42,910 nucleotides of DNA from a virus: positions 1 to 42,910 of the IMG/VR virus record IMGVR_UViG_3300010430_000135; one strand, given 5' to 3'. Below, piece by piece: positions 1 to 13,807 of this stretch. The notes beneath the pieces are model-generated. The model did not search any database. It worked only from the letters and a program-made list of their open reading frames with translations, and was not told the DNA's origin. Both the position numbers and the translations under genes were made by a program. Position 1 is the first letter of the stretch. Each line of letters starts with the position of its first letter.

Positions 1-175
1 CGTCGCCAGAGCCCCAGCCATCGCCATAGCCATCGCCATAGCCAGCGCCATCGCCATAGCCATAGCCAGCGCCATAGCCAGCGCCAAAGCCATCGCCATA
101 GCCAGCGCCATCGCCATAGCCAGCGCCAAAGCCATCGCCAGAGCCATCAAAGATGTTTTGTTTTTCTGTAGTCAT
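1..175 (-). CDS. Gly-X dipeptide repeat protein (partial, runs off left edge)
   Basis: The start codon is at 173-175 on the minus strand, with an AGAGGT ribosome site just upstream. The protein begins MTTEKQNIFDGSG and then alternates glycine with D, F, A, Y, W or S to the window edge, so every second codon is GGC. The first 13 residues equal those of the gene at 637-858, so the two are paralogues flanking a DUF6948-like gene. No enzyme motif is visible. Strict codon alternation and a normal start and ribosome site suggest a real low-complexity protein. The function is unknown and the C-terminus is not in the window. Confidence 0.65.
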   Translation of the reverse strand, partial: MTTEKQNIFDGSGDGFGAGYGDGAGYGDGFGAGYGAGYGYGDGAGYGDGYGDGWGSGD

Positions 176-212
176 AATATACCTCTAGTTTCCCACCCCA
201 TCACCCATTAAA

Positions 213-2526: not shown

Positions 2527-2679
2527 ATGGCAACAACGAATAAGAATCTTAGTTTCCCACCAGAATTACTAGAGTATTACCGTGAGAAAGCTGAGGAAGA
2601 TAATCGTAGTTTTAGCGGTTATATTGTACATGTTCTGACCAAAATTATGAAGGAGGATTCAAAGAATGGAACAAAGTAA
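2527..2679 (+). CDS. ribbon-helix-helix (Arc/MetJ-type) DNA-binding protein
   Basis: 50 residues, starting at the ATG after AACAGGAGGCATC; the longer reading from 2479 begins inside the promoter and is rejected. The pattern NLSFPPELLEYYREKAEED followed by RSFSGYIVHVLTKIM is the strand-helix-helix of the Arc/MetJ/CopG fold: short beta strand (about 7-10), helix A (11-23), turn with S/T, helix B (27-40). Such proteins dimerise and bind short repeated operators through the paired strands. It is first in the replication operon and next to a divergent operator, so it is a candidate for the regulator of the CACTAATG sites (inference). Confidence 0.7.
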   Translation: MATTNKNLSFPPELLEYYREKAEEDNRSFSGYIVHVLTKIMKEDSKNGTK

Positions 2680-3556
2680 TGAAGGGTATATTCAGGTAAC
2701 AAGATACCAATTGTTTCATGATGTACTTGCCGAGAAGAAATTCTCTAAGACAAAAGCATGGCTTTGGCTGCAACAGAGAGCTGCGTATGGATATATGACA
2801 GTCAACCGTAAGGGACATGAAATTCAGTTAGAAAAAGGTGAATTATGCGAGTCATCTCGCTTCTTAGCAGAGCAGTGGGGATGGTCAAAGAGTGCAGTTT
2901 TGAGGTTCATTTCAGAGCTAAAAAAGGCTGAATTTCTTGGACCAGGTTCATGGACCGGTCCAAAAAGTGGTCCAGAAACCGGACCAGAAACCGGACCAGC
3001 CTCCCAGGTTTACGTTATGCAGATCAACAACTTAACCGGACCAGAAACCGGACCAGAAACCGGACCAGAAACCGGACCAGAAACCGGTCCAAAACAGGAA
3101 GAGTGGACCGGTGTTTTGGACCAAAAGATAATAAACTCTACTACTCTTACTTCTAATAATATTACTAATACGCGGGTGCGCGAGGACGACCTTTTGGAAG
3201 GTCTCAACAAAGTGCAGGTTTCAGACTTGGATGAATTCAAGATGCAGATGGAAATGGCATGTGATCCCATTCAAGTAAACCTAGATACTTCGCTAATAGC
3301 ATTTCAAACATATTTTCAATCAAAAGGAGGAAAAGACAAACACGGTCATCCTATTCGTGATTGGGTCGCACGATTCAAGTTATGGGTGATGGATGAAAAC
3401 AAACGGTACAAAATGAACAAACCAATAGGAGGTTACGAGAATGACAACGGAACTAACAACACAGGACCAAAACTTAGCCAACACTCTGCAGCCATTGCAC
3501 GAGCAACAGAAGATTACATCATGGATCTCCGAGCTGGTGGACAATTCAGAGATTGA
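2666..3556 (+). CDS. lambda O-like replication initiator with GPET repeats
   Basis: 296 residues, with its ribosome site AAGGAGG inside the end of the upstream gene. Residues about 50-95 form a winged helix-turn-helix (ESSRFLAEQWGWSKSAVLRF followed by ISELKKAEFL) as in phage initiators that bind origin iterons. Residues about 92-150 are a low-complexity GPET linker encoded by 12-bp DNA repeats that look like the origin itself. The C-terminal part has DWVARFKLWV, the W-rich helix common in O/DnaD-like replication proteins and probably used to recruit helicase or its loader. The stop overlaps the next gene by 116 bases. The role in origin binding is by analogy with lambda O, not tested. Confidence 0.75.
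   Translation: MEQSNEGYIQVTRYQLFHDVLAEKKFSKTKAWLWLQQRAAYGYMTVNRKGHEIQLEKGELCESSRFLAEQWGWSKSAVLRFISELKKAEFLGPGSWTGPKSGPETGPETGPASQVYVMQINNLTGPETGPETGPETGPETGPKQEEWTGVLDQKIINSTTLTSNNITNTRVREDDLLEGLNKVQVSDLDEFKMQMEMACDPIQVNLDTSLIAFQTYFQSKGGKDKHGHPIRDWVARFKLWVMDENKRYKMNKPIGGYENDNGTNNTGPKLSQHSAAIARATEDYIMDLRAGGQFRD
2939..3171 (+). repeat. predicted replication origin: GGACCAGAAACC iterons plus AT-rich tract inside the initiator gene
   Basis: Four perfect adjacent 12-bp copies of GGACCAGAAACC lie at 3038-3085. Two more copies (the first with one T change) lie at 2969-2992, and part copies follow at 2993-2999 and 3086-3094. A perfect palindrome TGGACCGGTCCA is at 2951-2962, and further GGACC sites are at about 2939, 3105 and 3118. 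About 30 bases after the iterons the sequence turns strongly AT-rich (3121-3171). Iterons followed by an AT-rich unwinding region within the initiator gene is the lambda ori layout. Confidence 0.65.
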
Positions 3557-4104: not shown

Positions 4105-4908
4105 ATGATAATTGAAGAGAATATACAAACTGGTGAAGTGCGTGATGAAGAGGGTAATGTTATTACGCCTGAGGATATAAAGAAGTTTCAGGAGCAGAAG
4201 AATCGAATTCTGACACGATTTCAAGATGAGTTGAGAGATCAATTCTGGAGAGAGTCGGGTTACGATAAAACACCAGACTCATGGCCCAAAGGATTTATGG
4301 TTAAGAAGCCTTCTAGTATTCATCTAGGAACGGAGAAAGTAATCGATGCATTAGAACGCACAAAAGGAAGAATGGCTGGAGGTTATATCAATGATGATAT
4401 ATTACATATTCATCGGGTTGACTTAGACGATGAAGGTATTGAAGCAATATGTAACGTACTGGCTAAAAATGATTATTTTGAGGAGGTTCATTTAGTAATG
4501 TGCGATATAGGGGTACAAGGTGCAGTACATATTGCAAACATGCTTAAGCTGAATAAAAAAATAAAAATCCTCGGATTAGGCGGTAATCCACTTGGTGATG
4601 AAGGATCAGAAATTATATTAAAGGCGTTATGTGACAATGAAACGCTTGAAGGATTAGATCTTGGTACACTGGATTATCATGAACGGAATATTGCAAAAGA
4701 CAGTAATCTTTTAGATGTGATGCTACATAATAAAACGGTTCAAACGATTTATCTTAGTGGGTACGATATAGACGGAGAATTTAAATTACAGTGGGATCGT
4801 AGTTTTCAAGAAATTGATCAATTGTATTATAATGTTTGGAGAGACTATGTTGACTTAAATGTTGAGGGGAGTTTGTGGATTCAAAGATTGCAAAAGGAAA
4901 CAAATTAG
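4105..4908 (+). CDS. leucine-rich-repeat protein (ribonuclease-inhibitor type)
   Basis: 267 residues after a GGAGA site. Residues about 1-95 are charged and predicted soluble; from about 100 to 225 come repeats of the form LxxLxLxxxxLGDEGxxxLxxALxxN, for example HRVDLDDEGIEAICNVLAKN and then ILGLGGNPLGDEGSEII (about 155-171). Long repeats of this type build a curved solenoid that binds other proteins; they are common in eukaryotic NLR and ribonuclease-inhibitor proteins and in bacteria living with protists, and unusual in phages. There is no signal peptide. Two larger relatives are at 7371 and 8353, on the far side of rtcB and the endonuclease gene. The partner is unknown. Confidence 0.75.
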   Translation: MIIEENIQTGEVRDEEGNVITPEDIKKFQEQKNRILTRFQDELRDQFWRESGYDKTPDSWPKGFMVKKPSSIHLGTEKVIDALERTKGRMAGGYINDDILHIHRVDLDDEGIEAICNVLAKNDYFEEVHLVMCDIGVQGAVHIANMLKLNKKIKILGLGGNPLGDEGSEIILKALCDNETLEGLDLGTLDYHERNIAKDSNLLDVMLHNKTVQTIYLSGYDIDGEFKLQWDRSFQEIDQLYYNVWRDYVDLNVEGSLWIQRLQKETN

Positions 4909-4920
4909 GTTATAATGTTT

Positions 4921-4987
4921 AGGCGGCTTGTGTCATTCTCCCTTTGACGATCCCACAGATTTCCTACTCCCCTGGAGCAAGCCGCTT
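4921..4987 (+). other. long-range hairpin after the first LRR gene
   Basis: GCGGCTTG at 4923-4930 pairs perfectly with CAAGCCGC at 4978-4985, extendable by two more pairs. The loop is 47 bases and no T-run follows, so it is not a standard terminator. It may protect the end of the LRR mRNA or be part of a small RNA. The minor ORF 4944-5198 across this region lacks a ribosome site and is not credible. Confidence 0.35.
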
Positions 4988-4992
4988 ATGCT

Positions 4993-5098
4993 TTGACAGC
5001 GTTTACGTTTTATTAATGTCTAGGGTGCATTGTAGATTTTGCGTATCCTTCTATTTGCACCCCGGGTGTGTCATCTCACAGTGGCACACCCTTTTTTT
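4993..5098 (+). ncRNA. possible short plus-strand transcript ending in a terminator
   Basis: A TTGACA at 4993-4998 is followed 15 bp later by TAATGT (5014-5019), a short but usable spacing. The following 75 bases contain GGGTGCA (5023-5029) pairing with TGCACCC (5056-5062), and then a terminator hairpin. No ORF with a ribosome site lies inside. It may equally be only the 3-prime untranslated region of the LRR transcript. Confidence 0.3.
5064..5098 (+). terminator. rho-independent terminator, plus strand
   Basis: GGGTGTG (5064-5070) pairs with CACACCC (5085-5091), followed by seven T residues (5092-5098). It ends transcription from the LRR gene at 4105-4908 or from a small local transcript. 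Confidence 0.75.
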
Positions 5099-5116
5099 AT
5101 GCACAACATCAGACAC

Positions 5117-5144
5117 AAAAAAAGTCCCAACTACGTGTCGGGAC
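5117..5144 (-). terminator. rho-independent terminator, minus strand
   Basis: Read on minus: GTCCC, an 11-base loop, GGGAC (5124-5144), then seven U (5117-5123). No minus-strand protein gene lies upstream between here and 5384, so it must serve a non-coding transcript. Confidence 0.65.
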
Positions 5145-5236
5145 AGTGGTGTATGTGATATAAGAGGGGGAGGAAGGTTTTACAATAGGAGGTCGTAAAG
5201 GCGGCCTCCCCCGAGTGACCTTTAACCTAAAAAGGA
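5117..5236 (-). ncRNA. predicted small RNA with an anti-Shine-Dalgarno loop
   Basis: On minus, a promoter (5243-5271) is followed within about 120 bases by a terminator (hairpin 5124-5144 and U-run 5117-5123), with no ORF between. Within the RNA, GGGGGAGG (5205-5212) pairs perfectly with CCUCCCCC (5166-5173). The enclosed 31-base loop displays CGACCUCCUAUU (5184-5195), the complement of AATAGGAGGTCG. This is the core of the phage's own ribosome sites (for example before 14886, 16766, 16900, 17608, 17979 and 18329). A trans-acting translational regulator is possible. The alternative is a relic gene junction with a plus-strand ribosome site that lost its gene. Confidence 0.45.
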
Positions 5237-5242
5237 AATCTA

Positions 5243-5271
5243 AGTATAGCATATGTCAAGAAAATTATCAA
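5243..5271 (-). promoter_or_regulatory. minus-strand promoter of the predicted small RNA
   Basis: Read on minus: TTGATA (5266-5271), a 17-bp spacer, TATACT (5243-5248). Five of six bases match at each box and the spacing is ideal. The start is expected near 5236. It has no CACTAATG motif, so it is probably not controlled with the early genes. Confidence 0.6.
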
Positions 5272-5327
5272 CTTATAAAATTCCCTGTTACTATGGATGA
5301 TATCTTTTCCAAAGACACAACTTTATG

Positions 5328-5356
5328 TTGACAGTGTTAAGCACTAATGATAATGT
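5328..5356 (+). promoter_or_regulatory. operator-containing promoter of the rtcB operon
   Basis: TTGACA (5328-5333), a 17-bp spacer containing TTAAGCACTAATG (5337-5349), TAATGT (5351-5356). It is preceded by ACAACTTTATG, also found before the promoters at 11680 and 15287, and followed by the leader TAACGCAAATAGGAGGTTGT. Expected start near 5363. Confidence 0.8.
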
Positions 5357-5384
5357 GTCTGAATAACGCAAATAGGAGGTTGTT

Positions 5385-6623
5385 ATGTTTAATATAATTG
5401 AGAGTTCAGGATCACCAATTAAGGCTTGGACTAATGGTATACCTGTTGAAGATAGAGCATTAGAGCAGGTCAAGAATTTGGCATCAATGGGTTTCATCAC
5501 CAACCATGTTGCTATAATGCCTGATGTTCATTGGGGTATGGGTGCTACAATTGGCTCTGTAATACCCACTAACAAAGCTATTATTCCTGCGGCTGTTGGT
5601 GTTGATATTGGCTGTGGAATGATGGCTGTAAAGACGAGTATAACCGCATCACAGTTGCCTGATTCATTGGCTGAGATTCGTTCATCGATAGAAAAGAGTG
5701 TACCGCATGGACGTACATCCGCTGGACGTAGATACAATCCAAAGAACGATAGAGGATTATGGTATAATACTCCGAAGATTAATGAAGAACGATTCAAGGA
5801 TTTAAATACAGACCTACAAAGTATTCTTGATATGCTTGGTAAGGCTCAATGGATTAGAAGAGCGTCGGAGAATGCAGTTAATCAGTTAGGTACACTCGGT
5901 ACAGGTAATCACTTCATAGAGTTGTGCTTGGATGAGAACGATGATCTATGGATAATGCTACATTCTGGTAGCCGAGGCATCGGTAATACAATAGGTGATT
6001 ATTTCATCAAAAAAGCTAAGGAGGATATGCAACGTTGGCTGATTAATTTACCTGATGCAGACCTTGCATATATTCCAGAAGGATCTGAGAACTTTGATAA
6101 GTATGTTAAAGCTGTTGAATGGGCCCAAAGGTTTGCAAAGGCGAATAGAGAAATAATGATGCAATCTGTCATTAATTGTTTGAGTGAATATTTCCCTCTA
6201 GATATCTCTATCGAGAAAGAAGCTGTTAATTGTCATCACAATTACATTTCACGGGAGAATCACTTCGGTAAAAATGTATGGATAACTCGTAAAGGTGCAG
6301 TACGTGCTAGAGAAGGCGAGTTAGGTATAATTCCTGGTAGTATGGGTGCAAAAAGCTTTATCGTAAAAGGTAAGGGTAACCCTGAATCATTCTGCTCATG
6401 CTCACATGGTGCTGGTCGTATAATGAGTCGTATGAAGGCAAAGAAAACTATTAGTTTGGATGAGCATATCAAAGATACAGAAGGTGTGGAATGTAGAAAA
6501 GATTCTGACGTTATCGACGAAACACCAAAAGCATATAAGGATATTGATGCTGTCATCGCAGCTCAATCGGATTTAATTGATGTAGTTCACACACTAAAAC
6601 AAGTTGTATGTGTAAAGGGCTAG
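5385..6623 (+). CDS. rtcB: RNA-splicing ligase RtcB
   Basis: 412 residues, the normal length for a bacterial RtcB. It joins RNA 2,3-cyclic-phosphate ends to 5-OH ends using GTP and manganese. Visible motifs are PDVHWG (46-51), VDIGCGM (73-79, metal-binding C77), GTGNHF (171-176), HSGSRG (192-197), NCHHNYISRENHFG (281-294) and CSHGAGR (338-344), where H340 is the expected guanylylated histidine. All key residues appear intact. It is first in an operon with endonuclease I and two LRR genes, driven by an operator promoter. In a phage that carries tRNAs, RNA repair after host anticodon-nuclease attack is a plausible role (inference). Confidence 0.96.
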   Translation: MFNIIESSGSPIKAWTNGIPVEDRALEQVKNLASMGFITNHVAIMPDVHWGMGATIGSVIPTNKAIIPAAVGVDIGCGMMAVKTSITASQLPDSLAEIRSSIEKSVPHGRTSAGRRYNPKNDRGLWYNTPKINEERFKDLNTDLQSILDMLGKAQWIRRASENAVNQLGTLGTGNHFIELCLDENDDLWIMLHSGSRGIGNTIGDYFIKKAKEDMQRWLINLPDADLAYIPEGSENFDKYVKAVEWAQRFAKANREIMMQSVINCLSEYFPLDISIEKEAVNCHHNYISRENHFGKNVWITRKGAVRAREGELGIIPGSMGAKSFIVKGKGNPESFCSCSHGAGRIMSRMKAKKTISLDEHIKDTEGVECRKDSDVIDETPKAYKDIDAVIAAQSDLIDVVHTLKQVVCVKG

Positions 6624-6632
6624 GAGGTTGTT

Positions 6633-7361
6633 ATGGTTATTATTACGCTACTAGCACTGCTGGTAACATTGATTCCTGTGGAGAGTTCTGCATTAAGTCA
6701 AAAGAGCTTTCGTCAAGCAAAACAGGGTATGTTGCGAGTCTATGCTAGAGACAAGGAAACCTTCTACTGTGGATGTAAATACTATGAGCAAGATGGTACT
6801 TCTGATCCGAGTCTTAGTTCCTGCAGGTACGAACCCAGAAAGAATGCAAAGCGTGCTTCCCGATTAGAGTGGGACCATGTAGTGCCTGCCTCCTACTTTG
6901 GCAAGATGATGCCGTGTTGGGAAAAGGGGGGACGTAAGGAGTGTAAGAAGTATCCGTTGTTTAAGCAGATGGAAGCAGACATGCACAACTTAGTGCCGAG
7001 CATCGGAGAGATTAACGGAGACAAGAGCAACTACCTGTTCGATGAGATTCCAGGAGAAGCTCGCAAGTATGGAAGCTGTGACTTTGAAGTGGATACAAAG
7101 AAGCGTGTTGTAGAGCCTAGAGAGGAGATTAGAGGGGATATAGCGCGTAAGTGGTTCTATATGTCAGAGAAGTATTCCATGCCTATGCCACAGAGTTTAT
7201 ATCTACGTATGAAGCTATGGCACGAGAATGATCCGGTGACTTACGAGGAACGCGCATTGAATCAAAGAATTGGGTGGATACAAGGGAATGAGAATAAATA
7301 CGTGAAGGATAGGGATCTGCAGGTTGTGGGTATCGAAAATCAGAAGGCGTTTGTTAGATAG
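6633..7361 (+). CDS. endonuclease I family nuclease with signal peptide
   Basis: 242 residues, of usual length for the EndA/Dns family. An N-terminal hydrophobic segment (ITLLALLVTLIPVESSA, about 4-20) looks like a signal peptide cut after ESSA, so the mature enzyme should be periplasmic or secreted and disulphide-rich (C46, C48, C64, C95, C104). The active-site block is LEWDHVVPASYFG (78-90, general base H82), followed by DMHNLVPSIGEINGDKSNY (116-134) and a C-terminal GWIQGNENKYV. The family cuts double-stranded DNA without sequence preference. In a phage it might degrade DNA outside the cell or protect the infected cell. It is ten bases from rtcB and shares the phage ribosome site. Confidence 0.93.
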   Translation: MVIITLLALLVTLIPVESSALSQKSFRQAKQGMLRVYARDKETFYCGCKYYEQDGTSDPSLSSCRYEPRKNAKRASRLEWDHVVPASYFGKMMPCWEKGGRKECKKYPLFKQMEADMHNLVPSIGEINGDKSNYLFDEIPGEARKYGSCDFEVDTKKRVVEPREEIRGDIARKWFYMSEKYSMPMPQSLYLRMKLWHENDPVTYEERALNQRIGWIQGNENKYVKDRDLQVVGIENQKAFVR

Positions 7362-7370
7362 GAGGTTGTT

Positions 7371-8324
7371 ATGAATGGTTACATAGAAGAAGCATTTGAT
7401 AATTGGGATATCGATATGCTAAAGAATGCTGTAGATAATGCTAAAGAGTTGTATTTTAAAACATTACACACTGGTGATGCGAAGCAATTATGTCGTATTT
7501 TACAAAAGAATTCAACGGTTAAGAGGTTGAATCTTTCTTGGTGTGAACTTGATAAAAAACAAATAGAATTTTTTATTGAGATGCTAATGAAAAATTCATG
7601 TATTGAAGTGCTGACTTTTGATCATGTGTTTAGAGATCATGAGGAGTTATCTAGAATATTTAAGGCAATAAAAACAAATAATTCTATCAAAGAATTAATC
7701 GTGAAGAATAACACATTGTCTATAGAGCGATGTTCGATTTGTGAATCAGTAGAGAAATTTTGTTATTGTGATGATTGTGGGGATATTGATGGAGGATGTT
7801 TTACATACGACCCATACTGCAACTTTGATACAGCAACTTCAATTCGTGATATGCTATTAGTTCATGATTCATTAGTCTTTTTAGATTTATCAGATTGTGA
7901 ATTTACAAGCTTACGTGCCGATGAGTTTAGAATAATATTCTCAGCTCTGAAGGGGGATGAATCAAAATTAGAAATATTGAAATTCGATGGGAATAGACTG
8001 CAGACAAACATAGATATTGTAACTGATGTGATGCGTACGAATCGTCATCTAAAAAGACTGATACTAAAAGAAAATCATATAGGCGATCAAGGGGCTGACG
8101 GCATCGCACAGATGTTGACGAGTAATACAACGCTTGAATGGTTAGACCTTCGTAAGAATGTATTAACGGACGAAGGAATCTTCGTAATCGCTGAAGCACT
8201 GAAGTATAACAAAACGCTGAAACATCTTCTGATCGGCGGGAATCAGTTTTCTGATAAAGGAATTGCAGCGTTAAATGATGCAAAAGAAACGAATGGAACG
8301 CTTGGTGCCCTTAGTGTGAAATAA
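7371..8324 (+). CDS. leucine-rich-repeat protein with cysteine-rich insert
   Basis: 317 residues. LRRs of the ribonuclease-inhibitor kind occupy about 30-118 and 155-317, with textbook units such as LKRLILKENHIGDQGADGI and LEWLDLRKNVLTDEGIFVI near the end. Between them, at 121-150, is a cysteine cluster C-x2-C-x6-C-x-C-x2-C with further C143 and C150, probably a metal-binding knuckle inserted in the solenoid. There is no signal peptide. It follows endonuclease I by ten bases and is a close paralogue of the next gene (same layout, many identical segments such as LEILKFDGN versus LEVLKFDGN). Binding partner unknown; a role against host factors is only a guess. Confidence 0.8.
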   Translation: MNGYIEEAFDNWDIDMLKNAVDNAKELYFKTLHTGDAKQLCRILQKNSTVKRLNLSWCELDKKQIEFFIEMLMKNSCIEVLTFDHVFRDHEELSRIFKAIKTNNSIKELIVKNNTLSIERCSICESVEKFCYCDDCGDIDGGCFTYDPYCNFDTATSIRDMLLVHDSLVFLDLSDCEFTSLRADEFRIIFSALKGDESKLEILKFDGNRLQTNIDIVTDVMRTNRHLKRLILKENHIGDQGADGIAQMLTSNTTLEWLDLRKNVLTDEGIFVIAEALKYNKTLKHLLIGGNQFSDKGIAALNDAKETNGTLGALSVK

Positions 8325-8352: not shown

Positions 8353-9333
8353 ATGAATAATTATGTATTTAAAGCACTATGTGAATGGGATTCTAGTTTA
8401 CTCAAAGAAGAGTTAAGCAAGATCAATGACGTATCGTTTATTTCTGAGCCATTAGAGCAAGAATTTAGAATAGGTGAGCTACGTACAGGAGATGTCAAAG
8501 CTTTATCCGAAGCGCTGAGAGATAATGTAACTTTGAAGCGGTTGAATCTTTCTAAGAATGTTTTACATAACAAAGCAGCACGGTATATTGTTGATCTACT
8601 TGAGCATAACTCATGTTTAGAAGATCTTGTCATAGAGGGCGTTATAAGAGATCCAGAAAGTATTCAGGAAATATTTCTTGGCATTAAAAATAACTCGTCT
8701 CTACATTCCCTCAGTATAGGTAGAAGCCTTATATCCCAGGATGTATGTAAGGAGTGTAAACTTGAGCGGAAATATTGTGGTGGCTGCGATGACAATGACG
8801 TTAATAATTATGAGCCTTATTGTGACTATAAAAGTGCACAGGCTATACATGACGGTTTAGTGAATAATAGTCCATTAAGATTTCTCGATTTATCCAACTG
8901 TGATTTTTCTGATGATTTTAGAAAACAAGAATTGGAAATAATATTCTCTGCTTTAGCCCAGGATAAATCCAAATTGGAAGTACTTAAGTTTGATGGGAAT
9001 TTAGTGCATGAAAGTATTGATACACTTTCTGATTCAATGAGAACTAATCATCATTTAAAACGTTTGATACTAAAAGGTAATACTATAAGTGATGATGACG
9101 TTGATAGTATTTCTCAAATCATAACAAACAATACAACTCTGGAGTGGTTGGATATAAGAAGCAACTATATCACTGATCGAGGAATCCAAGTTATAGCTGA
9201 GGCCCTAAGATACAATAAAAGAAAAATATACTTACTTTTGGAGAGAAACGAGATTACAGAAGAAGGTATTAGAACACTAAAGGATTCCATGGCAGTGAAT
9301 TATAATTTTTCATGCGATATAATACGATCCTGA
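8353..9333 (+). CDS. leucine-rich-repeat protein with cysteine-rich insert (paralogue)
   Basis: 326 residues, same order of parts as the 7371 protein: N-terminal LRRs (LKRLNLSKNVLHNKAARYIV), a cysteine cluster at 132-157 (C-x2-C-x6-C-x2-C plus C157), then LRRs LKRLILKGNTISDDDVDSI and LEWLDIRSNYITDRGIQVI. The 28-base stretch before its start, GAAGGCGTTTGTTAAATAGG and onward, copies the end of the endonuclease gene plus the ribosome site seen before 7371. The pair therefore arose by a tandem duplication that carried the junction along. It is the last gene of the operon, followed by a large inverted repeat. Confidence 0.8.
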   Translation: MNNYVFKALCEWDSSLLKEELSKINDVSFISEPLEQEFRIGELRTGDVKALSEALRDNVTLKRLNLSKNVLHNKAARYIVDLLEHNSCLEDLVIEGVIRDPESIQEIFLGIKNNSSLHSLSIGRSLISQDVCKECKLERKYCGGCDDNDVNNYEPYCDYKSAQAIHDGLVNNSPLRFLDLSNCDFSDDFRKQELEIIFSALAQDKSKLEVLKFDGNLVHESIDTLSDSMRTNHHLKRLILKGNTISDDDVDSISQIITNNTTLEWLDIRSNYITDRGIQVIAEALRYNKRKIYLLLERNEITEEGIRTLKDSMAVNYNFSCDIIRS

Positions 9334-9387: not shown

Positions 9388-9455
9388 GTGATGAGTTGTT
9401 AGGGAAATCCGAATAACTCAGTTGCCGAGCAATCCTCAGTAGTTGAGCTGTCAAG

Positions 9456-9704
9456 TAATCCTTTACAACTGCCAGCAATAAAAGGAAAATAATATGAGTA
9501 ATGAGTATGATCTACGGATCGAGAAACTGAAGGAGTTAGAATCAAGAATTGGCGCTCGGTCTATAGTATCGGATTATGCTGACAGGTCACAATGTGCAGT
9601 GGATAATGTTCAGTATGGATACAATATTGAAGAGGGTATTATTACTATAAAATGTGTTCTATCCTTTGATGCATCACTTGTTTAATAATCCTTTACAACT
9701 GCCA
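9456..9704 (+). repeat. 19-bp direct repeats bracketing a small gene
   Basis: TAATCCTTTACAACTGCCA occurs at 9456-9474 and again at 9686-9704. The first copy lies just before the ribosome site of the gene at 9494-9685 and the second starts one base after its stop codon. The arrangement suggests the gene with its flank can be gained or lost by recombination between the repeats. Confidence 0.7.
9494..9685 (+). CDS. small hypothetical protein
   Basis: 63 residues: MSNEYDLRIEKLKELESRIG, a helical charged N-terminus, then a short predicted beta region (YNIEEGIITIKCVLSFDASL). The ribosome site AAAGGA is at suitable spacing. The gene is held exactly between two 19-bp direct repeats (9456 and 9686). 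No family recognised. Confidence 0.6.
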   Translation: MSNEYDLRIEKLKELESRIGARSIVSDYADRSQCAVDNVQYGYNIEEGIITIKCVLSFDASLV

Positions 9705-10023: not shown

Positions 10024-10068
10024 AACGGTGTACTACAACTACTTTCGGGATGGTAATTGTAGGCTAGA

Positions 10069-10260
10069 TCAAGTATATTCACGGAGGAGTGATACTAATC
10101 GATCTAATTTATCTTCGATAATACAGGACAGTACAAGAATTGCAAGATCCTTTTTATCTGCAGATATCGTGTCACATATATTAAGAGCATGTAGCAATGA
10201 TGCTATCTCTTCCTCAGTGTGATGTAATACTAGTGTCTTACCTTCCATGAACTTGTCCAT
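10069..10260 (-). CDS. small hypothetical protein
   Basis: 63 residues, MDKFMEGKTLVLHHTEEEIA then LLHALNIC and KKDLAILVLSCIIEDKLDRL, a plausible amphipathic helical protein. It overlaps the end of the upstream minus gene by 23 bases in another frame, and no clear ribosome site is seen, so it may be translated by coupling. It ends before the bidirectional terminator. The plus-strand ORF 9971-10222 over it begins inside the neighbour and is rejected. Confidence 0.5.
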   Translation of the reverse strand: MDKFMEGKTLVLHHTEEEIASLLHALNICDTISADKKDLAILVLSCIIEDKLDRLVSLLREYT

Positions 10261-10456: not shown

Positions 10457-10500
10457 TGTAAACACTAATGGTACGATAAAATGAACATTAGTGCTTAATG
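10457..10500. promoter_or_regulatory. divergent control region with two inverted CACTAATG operators
   Basis: CACTAATG at 10463-10470 (extended form CTGTAAACACTAATGGTA) and its inverted copy CATTAGTG at 10486-10493 (extended form TTAAGCACTAATG on minus) face each other across 15 bp. The region separates the leftward 10405 gene from the rightward 10527 gene. Promoter boxes are weaker than at other operator sites: TACGAT follows the first copy but the -35 is poor. Confidence 0.55.
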
Positions 10501-10979: not shown

Positions 10980-11146
10980 TTGATGCGTTGTGGAAGATTG
11001 TACTGGTTGTGGGGTATACAGCCTTTGTGTTAGTGCCGGTGCTTATGTTCCTGATACCGATTACGTTGTTTGTTATTAGCCCGTTGTTCCTTGTTATGGC
11101 AGTGGTGGGTTATTGGGATGAAGTCCATGCAGGTAAGGCTCAGTAG
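10976..11146 (+). CDS. small membrane protein ending inside tRNA-Cys
   Basis: 56 residues. The start overlaps the previous stop as ATGA (10976-10979). Two hydrophobic stretches, IVLVVGYTAFVLVPVLMFLI (about 8-27) and ITLFVISPLFLVMAVVGYW (29-47), make it an integral membrane protein; holin-like size and shape but no proof. Its TAG stop (11144-11146) is made by nucleotides 8-10 of the tRNA-Cys gene, so RNA processing of the tRNA would remove the stop codon from the mRNA. The 14238 gene shows the same arrangement. Confidence 0.6.
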   Translation: MIDALWKIVLVVGYTAFVLVPVLMFLIPITLFVISPLFLVMAVVGYWDEVHAGKAQ

Positions 11147-11210
11147 CAAAGTGGTAATGCACTGGATTGCAACCCCAGCATCGTTGGTTCGATTCCAGCC
11201 TGGGCCTCCA
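11137..11210 (+). tRNA. tRNA-Cys (GCA)
   Basis: Acceptor arm GGCTCAG / CTGGGCC (one G-U pair), D-arm GCAAAGTGGTAATGC, anticodon loop TTGCAAC with anticodon GCA, T-arm with GGTTCGATTCC, and encoded CCA at 11208-11210. The anticodon stem has one mismatch (A-C) next to the loop. Length is 74 nt. It overlaps the end of a membrane-protein gene and is followed two bases later by a promoter. Confidence 0.88.
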
Positions 11211-11212
11211 AC

Positions 11213-11240
11213 TTGACTTTAAGCACTAATGTTGTATATT
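11213..11240 (+). promoter_or_regulatory. promoter of the structured RNA, with CACTAATG operator
   Basis: TTGACT (11213-11218), a 16-bp spacer that includes TTAAGCACTAATG, TATATT (11235-11240). Expected start near 11247. No ribosome site or gene follows, only a folded RNA and a terminator. Confidence 0.7.
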
Positions 11241-11246
11241 GACTCT

Positions 11247-11476
11247 GAAGTTTGGAAGAGAGCGATTGCTCGCCCCCTTCCTGTGGGACTGACTACTCAA
11301 GCTCATCAATGATTTGCTTAAGTAACTTAAGGATGTCGAGGATCAGGCGAGTGATCCTCATAATGTCATCGGCGAAGTATTGACAACAATACTGATGACA
11401 TTATTCTGACAAAGAAACCTTATATGGTAGATTTTAAAAGAGACAACGGGGTGGCTTCGGTTGCCCTGTTTTTTTT
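11247..11476 (+). ncRNA. predicted structured non-coding RNA with possible pseudoknot
   Basis: A promoter (11213-11240) and terminator (11447-11476) bracket about 230 bases without a credible ORF. Perfect stems: GGAAG/CTTCC (11254-11258 with 11277-11281) enclosing GAGC/GCTC; GAGGATCA/TGATCCTC (11338-11345 with 11352-11359); ATAATGTCATC/GATGACATTAT (11360-11370 with 11394-11404); within the last, AGTATTG/CAATACT (11376-11393) with loop ACAA. The loop GGCGAG (11346-11351) is complementary to CTCGCC at 11269-11274, so a loop-loop or pseudoknot contact is possible. GGCGA repeats as an internal bulge at 11371-11375. It does not match tmRNA, RNase P, 6S or SRP RNA as I know them. Confidence 0.6.
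11447..11476 (+). terminator. rho-independent terminator with TTCG tetraloop
   Basis: CGGGGTGGC, loop TTCG, GTTGCCCTG (with G-U pairs), then eight T residues (11469-11476). The same TTCG-capped design occurs at 27191-27214 after the capsid gene. Confidence 0.85.
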
Positions 11477-11679
11477 ACGCATTCAGTTAGTCACAATCCG
11501 TGACCATCTATCAATGTTCTATGCCGCATAGCACTACCATGTTGGATTGAGTATGTAATATGCATACAAGAAATGACAGTTTTGTGTGTTCGTAGTCGGT
11601 ATACATACAAGAATTAGGGTTTTATGTGCACGTATGTACGTATGTCCAAATCTTTTTTCACAAATAGTACAACTTTATG
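11477..11679. other. gene-free stretch with imperfect direct repeats
   Basis: No ORF with a ribosome site is seen. Two imperfect copies of a sequence of about 33 bases begin at 11562 (CATACAAGAAATGACAG...) and 11603 (CATACAAGAATTAGGG...), each ending in CGTA. GTATGTACGTATGT follows near 11633. They could be protein-binding sites or the remains of a duplication. Confidence 0.4.
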
Positions 11680-11708
11680 TTGACAGTGTTAAACACTAAT
11701 GGTAGAGT
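11680..11708 (+). promoter_or_regulatory. operator-containing promoter
   Basis: TTGACA (11680-11685), a 17-bp spacer containing TTAAACACTAATG, TAGAGT (11703-11708), preceded by ACAACTTTATG and followed by the standard leader TAACGCAAATAGGAGG. Near copy of the 5328 promoter. It drives the gene at 11737 and probably the genes after it. Confidence 0.8.
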
Positions 11709-11736: not shown

Positions 11737-12249
11737 ATGTGTATTTATGACGGAATGGCACTTGTTGCCATATGTTCACTGGTTGTATTGATTTATCTTC
11801 AGCATAAGAATTATAGCAAGAAAACCAAAGAGAGAGAACTTATGCATAAGAGAATAAGCGATGATTATGTTTTTATGTTGTTAAAAAAAAGAATAAGCGA
11901 ATATGAAGAAAAAACTCAATATTCTATGTATGAAGATTCTATGTATGAAAATACTATATATAGAGATAATTTAAGGGGATTGTATATCGATACAAAATGC
12001 CTTTTTGAAACTTTATGCTTCAGATTACCAAAATTCTATTCAATACATAAAAATAATCCAACACCACGTAATAAAAATCTCAGCGGTAAGGAATATGACA
12101 AAGAAGAAGTTAGGGTGCATATTTCTCATATAAACAAGATATTGAAATTATACGAAGAACATAAAAAAGATCAGCGAGAAAAAAGCGCAAATCCTAAAGG
12201 GGTAGAAGACTTTACTATACACGCAATAGTAAGTTCTGAAAGTGAATAG
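11737..12249 (+). CDS. membrane-anchored hypothetical protein
   Basis: 170 residues. An N-terminal hydrophobic helix, MALVAICSLVVLIYL (about 7-21), is followed by a lysine-rich stretch (KKTKERELMHKRI) and a long charged, mostly helical domain with tyrosine/acid repeats YSMYEDSMYENTIYRDN. The expected topology is N-terminus out and a large cytoplasmic domain. The ribosome site is the phage consensus. No family recognised; an inner-membrane-anchored exclusion or host-modifying protein is one idea only. Confidence 0.6.
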   Translation: MCIYDGMALVAICSLVVLIYLQHKNYSKKTKERELMHKRISDDYVFMLLKKRISEYEEKTQYSMYEDSMYENTIYRDNLRGLYIDTKCLFETLCFRLPKFYSIHKNNPTPRNKNLSGKEYDKEEVRVHISHINKILKLYEEHKKDQREKSANPKGVEDFTIHAIVSSESE

Positions 12250-12292: not shown

Positions 12293-12379
12293 ATGAATCA
12301 AGCTTTATTACGTATAGGATACGAACGGTCTAGGTCTAGGTCTTGGTCTTGGTCTAGGTCTTGGTCTAGGTCTTGGTGA
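12293..12379 (+). CDS. 28-residue Ser-Arg/Ser-Trp repeat peptide
   Basis: It starts MNQALLRIGYER and continues with SRSRSWSWSRSWSRSW, encoded by a hexanucleotide-periodic tract of GGTCTA/GGTCTT units. The ribosome site is the phage consensus, ATAGGAGGTTGTT. Shifted by one base the same tract would read (Gly-Leu)n, like the Gly-X genes at 1-175 and 637-858, but that frame has no start codon. It precedes the second DUF6948-like gene. Two further ORFs starting MNQAL follow at 12763 and 12989. Real expression is likely from the ribosome site; function unknown. Confidence 0.5.
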   Translation: MNQALLRIGYERSRSRSWSWSRSWSRSW

Positions 12380-12412
12380 TAAATTTTAATTATAACTTTA
12401 TAGGAGAATATT

Positions 12413-13231: not shown

Positions 13232-13430
13232 AGATAGTAATTATTTCAAAGATAGAGATGTAAAGGCTTTTACTATTGAGAAATTAGGTGCAAAGAAGCG
13301 AGCAATATTTCTTGAGCTTGAAGGTATGTTGATTAAATTTGCGATATTGACCGATACAGGTGAACAATATTTACAGCAACATGAACTAGGTTTGGTATTT
13401 CAGAGAAAAGAGGAAGAGGAGGTAACATGA
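13221..13430 (+). CDS. small hypothetical protein upstream of an XRE regulator
   Basis: 69 residues from the ATG after GGGGGAAAA. It reads MTFKDSNYFKDRDVKAFTIE, then KLGAKKRAIFLELEGMLIKF, a plausible small globular protein with an acidic C-terminus (KEEEEVT). The frame stays open upstream to 13044, so a longer protein is possible, but that part is compositionally unlike a normal protein. The stop overlaps the XRE start (ATGA), so the two are coupled. Confidence 0.55.
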   Translation: MTFKDSNYFKDRDVKAFTIEKLGAKKRAIFLELEGMLIKFAILTDTGEQYLQQHELGLVFQRKEEEEVT

Positions 13431-13807
13431 CTAAAAGAAAATATACGATAAATCCAGGCGTAAGAGTGCCTAGTGATACCGATAAGTGTGTAGGTGAGCG
13501 TATTAGAGAGATACGTGTGTCTAAAGGCTTGTCACGTCGTCAAATAGCAAATCGTGTACATGTAACGCATCAACAGATACAGAAGTACGAGAAAGGCTAT
13601 AATCGCATGAGTGTTGGTAGACTCGTAGAGATTGCTGATGCAATGGACTGTCATGTAACAGAGTTGCTGCAGGTAGAAGATACAAAGATGGGCGATAATA
13701 CACATAGTCGTTTGGAACTAGATTTAATGCGTAGCTTTGCCAAGCTTGATGAAGCTTCTAGGCAGAAGGTGAGTGCGTTGGTGAGAGTGATGGCGGAGGG
13801 TGAGTGA
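13427..13807 (+). CDS. XRE-family helix-turn-helix regulator
   Basis: 126 residues. Residues about 23-80 form an HTH_3 domain: GERIREIRVSKGLSRRQIAN, then VHVTHQQIQKYEKGYNRMSVGR, then LVEIADAMDCHVTELL. The C-terminal part (RLELDLMRSFAKLDEASRQK) is a helical tail seen in many phage and prophage Cro/CI-like proteins. It probably binds an operator as a dimer; candidates are the CACTAATG sites or palindromes near 19992. It is inside the rightward small-gene cluster, not next to a divergent promoter, so it is not a typical CI position. Confidence 0.85.
   Translation: MTKRKYTINPGVRVPSDTDKCVGERIREIRVSKGLSRRQIANRVHVTHQQIQKYEKGYNRMSVGRLVEIADAMDCHVTELLQVEDTKMGDNTHSRLELDLMRSFAKLDEASRQKVSALVRVMAEGE

Follow-up and report, generated by a model that had tools for sequence, protein, structure and literature searches.

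The question raised by positions 11247 to 11476 of the IMG/VR viral contig analyzed here (the whole stretch of 42,910 nt is called "the window" in the following) is whether some 230 bases next to a tRNA-Cys gene encode a structured RNA of their own, and what such an RNA could do. The 42.9-kb contig belongs to a tailed phage with genes for a contractile tail (sheath, baseplate hub, tape measure). Its nearest TerL match has an identity of 59%, the nearest among isolates being Pseudomonas phage MR14, which makes a gammaproteobacterial host likely; in the collections compared the phage is without close relative. The features discussed are collected in Table 1.

Table 1. Features of the RNA locus, its operator family and the second unit (window coordinates).
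Feature	Position	Strand	Remark
tRNA-Cys (GCA)	11137-11210	+	ARAGORN; Rfam tRNA 59.7 bits; directly upstream of the RNA unit
Promoter TTGACT-16-TATATT, sigma70-type	11213-11240	+	10/12 consensus positions
Operator GCACTAATGTT in promoter spacer	11223-11233	+	1 of 7 exact RCACTAATGKT sites
Predicted non-coding RNA, ~230 nt	11247-11476	+	start inferred from -10 box
Stem GGAAG/CTTCC (hairpin H1)	11254-11281	both	plus split 5+1+4; minus 12 bp, GCAA tetraloop
Weak hairpin H2	11283-11306	+	plus only; in 97% of sampled structures
Competing hairpin H3, 10 bp + 3 bp	11292-11326	-	-12.2 kcal/mol on minus, -7.5 on plus
Hairpin with perfect 6-bp stem CTTAAG/CTTAAG	11311-11337	+	stem 11317-11331; 99% of sampled structures
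Hairpin H4, perfect 8 bp, GAGGATCA/TGATCCTC	11338-11359	both	plus loop GGCGAG
Hairpin H5, ATAATGTCATC/GATGACATTAT 11 bp + 5-nt bulge GGCGA + 7 bp	11360-11404	both	>98% of samples
Intrinsic terminator AACGGGGTGGC-TTCG-GTTGCCCTGTT + T run	11445-11476	+	UUCG loop, U tail
Next operator-bearing promoter	11680-11708	+	drives ORF at 11737
Exact operator sites	2439(-), 10462/10484 (divergent), 11223, 11693, 12249, 15300
Operator variant GCACTAATGAT	5341		before RtcB
Second-unit promoter TTGCAA-17-TATAAT	4888-4916	+	read from sequence
Second-unit 5' hairpin			closing stem GGCGGCTTG/CAAGCCGC
Second-unit terminator GGGTGTGTC...GGCACACCC with T7	ends near 5100

A preliminary description of the locus had placed a promoter with a phage operator and a TTCG-capped terminator around a region with no credible gene, and all three elements were found as claimed. 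The -35 box begins 3 nt from the 3' end of the tRNA, and promoter and terminator bracket the predicted RNA exactly. The terminator has a stem of 11 bp, ends at 11476 and is tied to the plus strand by four G.U pairs (-13.4 compared to -3.6 kcal/mol on the minus strand). No ORF of at least 50 amino acids and no usable Shine-Dalgarno sequence occur in 11247-11476, where the longest frame comprises 43 amino acids and starts with TTG. An own promoter, an own terminator and the absence of an ORF are thus present, as in the general kind of a phage-encoded stand-alone sRNA, and at the level of sequence they support a stand-alone transcription unit for a predicted structured non-coding RNA on the plus strand. 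The terminator and the separate promoter of the ORF at 11737 argue against a leader RNA of that gene. In the gap 3' of the RNA the sequence TATRCATACAAGAA is found twice (11559-11572 and 11600-11613), 41 nt apart.

Short ORFs do exist on both strands of the region, e.g. a 22-residue frame on the minus strand (11361-11293), and an ORF of 170 amino acids follows the RNA. One might therefore think of a decayed or tiny gene, coding for a short peptide or forming part of a type I or type III toxin-antitoxin system. We regard this as highly improbable, as none of the ORFs possesses a Shine-Dalgarno sequence, whereas the phage uses a strong AGGAGG, and a peptide search with the 22-residue frame gave no phage match. 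The 170-residue ORF is served by a separate promoter and matches no family, and the tandem repeats before a toxin gene that are typical of type III antitoxins are absent.

The operator provides an argument of a different kind. RCACTAATGKT occurs in seven exact copies in the window compared to 0.13 expected in shuffled sequences (shuffle maximum one), and judged by these counts the operator family is real. All exact sites except the one at 11223 are located upstream of predicted ORFs, which supports the view that the RNA shares its putative operator with protein genes. An operator common to protein genes is an independent, sequence-level reason to believe that the transcript exists. The earlier proposal took the operator to show that the RNA is expressed with the early genes; "early" itself is deduced from the operator-bearing promoters being situated in the non-structural genome half. 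The promoter of the RNA deviates slightly from its sister promoters: the distance from the operator is 3 nt shorter for the -35 box and 2 nt longer for the -10 box. Between divergent genes at 10462-10494 two operator copies point outwards, and this site is a candidate for the control hub of the regulon. By a scan of IMG/VR with the promoter pattern a separate phage fragment was picked up that carries two promoter-operator copies in the same register (10050-10074 and 10993-11017, minus strand) with the pattern TTGAC-N9-CACTAATGGTA and AGGAGG-type starts; its proteins have almost no similarity to those of the window.

The predicted fold of the plus strand is unusually stable. A z-score of -4.84 was obtained with the terminator and of -5.2 without it; in a second run without the terminator z was -4.8, and 0 out of 500 shuffled sequences folded as well. 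Among 1,296 sampled windows on both strands the locus ranks third in fold strength. The top-ranked window (1-198, minus strand) was rejected as an RNA gene since it codes for a Gly-rich repeat in tandem (GDGFGAGYGDG-like) that continues beyond the end of the contig, and the highly ranked window 2905-3102 (minus) lies opposite the ORF 2666-3556. The RNA has perfect stems of 8, 11 and 7 bp. Three or more perfect stems of at least 7 bp are present in 0.75% of the shuffles, and 0.25% contain a stem of 11 bp. Of the five perfect nested stems reported previously, the 11-bp stem indeed encloses the 7-bp stem (AGTATTG/CAATACT, 11376-11393) in H5, but the remaining ones mostly stand side by side, and H1 is imperfect, with A.C mismatches dividing it into 5+1+4 pairs. 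A weak, G.U-rich helix (11243-11253 with 11429-11442) would close the structure. In the predicted fold most of the RNA is paired and few loops are exposed; H3 is absent from the sampled plus-strand structures.

The same hairpins fold even better on the opposite strand. For the region an energy of -68.9 kcal/mol was calculated on the minus strand compared to -63.3 kcal/mol on the plus strand, though the composition favors the plus strand by 2.9. In the hairpin region z is -7.1 (minus) compared to -4.8 (plus), and a difference of this size is seen in 1.6% of shuffles. The minus strand folds better because the A.C mismatches of two hairpins on the plus strand are G.U pairs on the minus strand: this holds for both mismatches in H1, with energies of -11.0 (plus) and -19.7 kcal/mol (minus), and H3 follows the same pattern. 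The G.U pairs of the terminator and the whole second unit at 4918-5103 favor the plus strand, opposite to the hairpins.

The selected molecule may consequently be a minus-strand RNA, or both strands may be selected. This leads to a two-strand antisense element in which the selected fold resides in a minus RNA and the operator-driven plus RNA would be its antisense regulator, of the type OOP, sar or RNAI. The z-scores speak for such an element, as does the fact that all A.C mismatches of H1 and H3 turn into G.U pairs, so that a GCAA-capped hairpin of 12 bp results, and a weak promoter-like site is present on the minus strand at 11692-11664. Against it we note that a good promoter and a terminator exist on the plus strand only. 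The minus strand has no terminator, the sole promoter scanned there reaches 9/12 positions, and transcription would continue antisense into the tRNA-Cys gene. The 22-residue minus frame does not help, lacking a Shine-Dalgarno sequence and a phage match, and the strand asymmetry was spotted post hoc. The phage antisense RNAs OOP, sar and aQ are likewise short phage RNAs with their own promoter, a likeness that matches the minus-strand fold; here, there is no evident opposing gene and no minus promoter of quality. We consider the antisense element possible but unlikely. If relatives turn up, the pairing bias would discriminate sharply between selection on the one strand and on the other.

That the main hairpins are inverted repeats folding on both strands could also point to an element acting at the DNA level, i.e. 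a double- or single-stranded DNA structure, for instance an origin or an array of protein-binding sites, which is transcribed incidentally. An operator-bearing promoter and a dedicated terminator would then be superfluous, and the region contains neither iterons nor tandem repeats, so that we judge this to be very unlikely.

The preliminary description had further suggested a switch in which the loop GGCGAG (11346-11351) and the bulge GGCGA (11371-11375) compete for CTCGCC (11269-11274). The three motifs are located where they were said to be, and a GC-rich complement of this kind is rare: a loop 6-mer complement with at least five G+C was seen in 0 out of 400 shuffles, compared to 25% for any loop 6-mer complement. 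An alternative 11-bp helix (11264-11274 with 11346-11356) lies just 2.7 kcal/mol above the best fold. Nevertheless, structure sampling assigns the alternative pairing approximately 4% of the predicted ensemble compared to 95%, so the two comparable folds of a bistable RNA are not found, and forcing CTCGCC onto the bulge costs 16 kcal/mol. A shared unpaired 5-mer such as GGCGA is unremarkable, as it occurs in 28% of shuffles. A kissing contact between CTCGCC and GGCGAG would gain 9.5 kcal/mol, hardly more than the 7.9 kcal/mol needed for opening H1, before any loop penalty. The terminator is present in every sampled structure (100%), which leaves no expression platform downstream. The competition of two partners is not borne out by these values, and a switch RNA appears hardly credible.

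The searches for relatives of the RNA gave a uniform picture. The earlier statement that it matches neither tmRNA, RNase P, 6S, SRP nor a riboswitch was confirmed by cmscan against Rfam 15, which gave no match to 11247-11476 at the gathering threshold or at E<=5. Blastn against 50,697 phage records, against plasmids and against E. coli genomes gave no homologue; weak plasmid matches with 74-79% identity cover for the most part the tRNA or the bases immediately before it and do not fall in the RNA. No exact 20-mer of the RNA occurs in IMG/VR. An exact 16-mer of the H4 apex has 25 matches, about the number expected by estimate, with covariance scores of 8-11 bits, and one further locus matched the terminator only (18.4 bits). 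Relatives of the phage were sought via TerL, endonuclease I, the 10518 protein, the XRE protein and RtcB. The approximately 265 viral and bacterial loci fetched in this way were searched with nhmmer and with covariance models of both strands (most loci by covariance model, whole contigs also), and no homologue of the RNA was found among them. In 369 gammaproteobacterial genomes model R1 gave three matches of 27-66 nt, one of them the terminator alone, which were judged to be chance; model R2 gave none.

This absence from the collections searched is weak evidence that the RNA is rare. As no second sequence was found in the collections searched there is no covariation or conservation, and neither the assertion nor the rejection of a new RNA class would be justified. 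A repressor-regulated multi-hairpin RNA beside a tRNA in an RtcB-carrying phage, possibly a decoy or counter-defence RNA and with the selected fold maybe opposite the promoter, would constitute an undescribed class of phage RNA, an idea we consider speculative and rather unlikely. Gene finders and Rfam miss orphan non-coding RNAs, which leaves those of phages under-annotated.

The neighborhood of the tRNA brings to mind stable RNAs with a purely structural role. Among phage RNAs, ROOL and GOLLD have no known function and are often found near tRNA islands (PMC12286853), and the RNA described here shares with them the tRNA nearby and a stable fold of many hairpins; it might even self-associate via its complementary loops, GGCGAG and CTCGCC. 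It is, however, much shorter (GOLLD has 800 nt), adjoins a single tRNA, has no conserved pseudoknotted core demonstrated, and matched neither the ROOL nor the GOLLD covariance model in the cmscan run. Self-association would depend on a single 6-mer, the complement of which is 95% engaged in the pairing of H1. Taken together, a ROOL- or GOLLD-like RNA seems quite improbable. The stable RNAs C and D of phage T4 are also short, of unknown function, and encoded in a tRNA cluster. They are made within the tRNA transcript, unlike the RNA here with its own promoter and terminator, and there is no sequence match to them.

We therefore favor, with a probability of about one half, the reading of 11247-11476 as a stand-alone phage sRNA that belongs to the operator regulon and works in trans, either as a regulator or as a decoy. 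In this model transcription would start at the operator-bearing promoter just past the tRNA-Cys gene and would end at the intrinsic terminator, short of the next promoter. Release of the operator by its regulator, perhaps the XRE-type protein encoded at 13427-13807, would lead to expression of the RNA along with the rest of the regulon. The transcript would then form a series of stable hairpins, and its few exposed loops could bind a host (or phage) protein or RNA. We infer transcription, its timing, the identity of the operator-binding protein and the action in trans from this arrangement. The unit does not depend on its neighboring genes on either side, and the operator that it shares with the regulon implies a function connected with that of the other genes under this control.

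Phages are known to encode trans-acting sRNAs; VpdS of VP882 and PreS of lambda, for example, both bind Hfq and act on host and phage RNAs (PMC12197685). The RNA described here resembles them as a phage-encoded non-coding RNA with a U-rich terminator tail. It differs in being mostly paired with little free seed, and in being without a blastn match in the phage records. Most of its bases being paired argues against a classic seed-pairing sRNA, as a typical Hfq sRNA has a free seed, and the preference of the hairpins for the minus strand speaks against the sRNA reading as a whole. Pairing with the start regions of the phage was no better than for shuffled sequences (best -13.1 kcal/mol, null -17.5 kcal/mol), and the longest exact complement in a search for antisense targets in the phage was just 10 nt.

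Promoter-structure-terminator units are found in both of the two longest ORF-poor gaps within the contig. The other gap (4909-5384) contains a second unit without an ORF at 4888-5103 on the plus strand, with a z-score of -5.3 compared to -2.3 on the minus strand. It belongs to no Rfam family, has no match in the phages or loci searched and is unrelated in sequence to the RNA at 11247-11476. If expressed, the two units would represent a tractable entry to RNA-based control or counter-defence in a lineage without close relative. After the terminator of the second unit further inverted repeats are found at 5110-5245, among them GGAGGTCGTAAAGGCGGCCTCC, with z of about -3.2 to -3.5 on both strands.

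Downstream of these repeats the gene of the RNA ligase RtcB (5385-6623) adjoins that of a periplasmic-type endonuclease I (EndA, 6633-7361), both on the plus strand; the RtcB promoter at 5328 carries the operator. Three leucine-rich-repeat (LRR) proteins are encoded nearby on the plus strand (4105-4908, 7371-8324 and 8353-9333). The one starting at 8353 matches ribonuclease-inhibitor/NLRP-type LRRs of solved structures, which is unusual for a phage. Weak LRR relatives occur in 7 out of the 369 gammaproteobacterial genomes; two LRR-bearing genomes stem from orders that contained just one or two genomes. A direct repeat, AATCCTTTACAACTGCCA (9449-9474 and 9679-9704), flanks a small ORF at 9494-9685, and a tandem repeat of GGTCTAGGTCTT is located at 12327-12380 near the start of a short gene.
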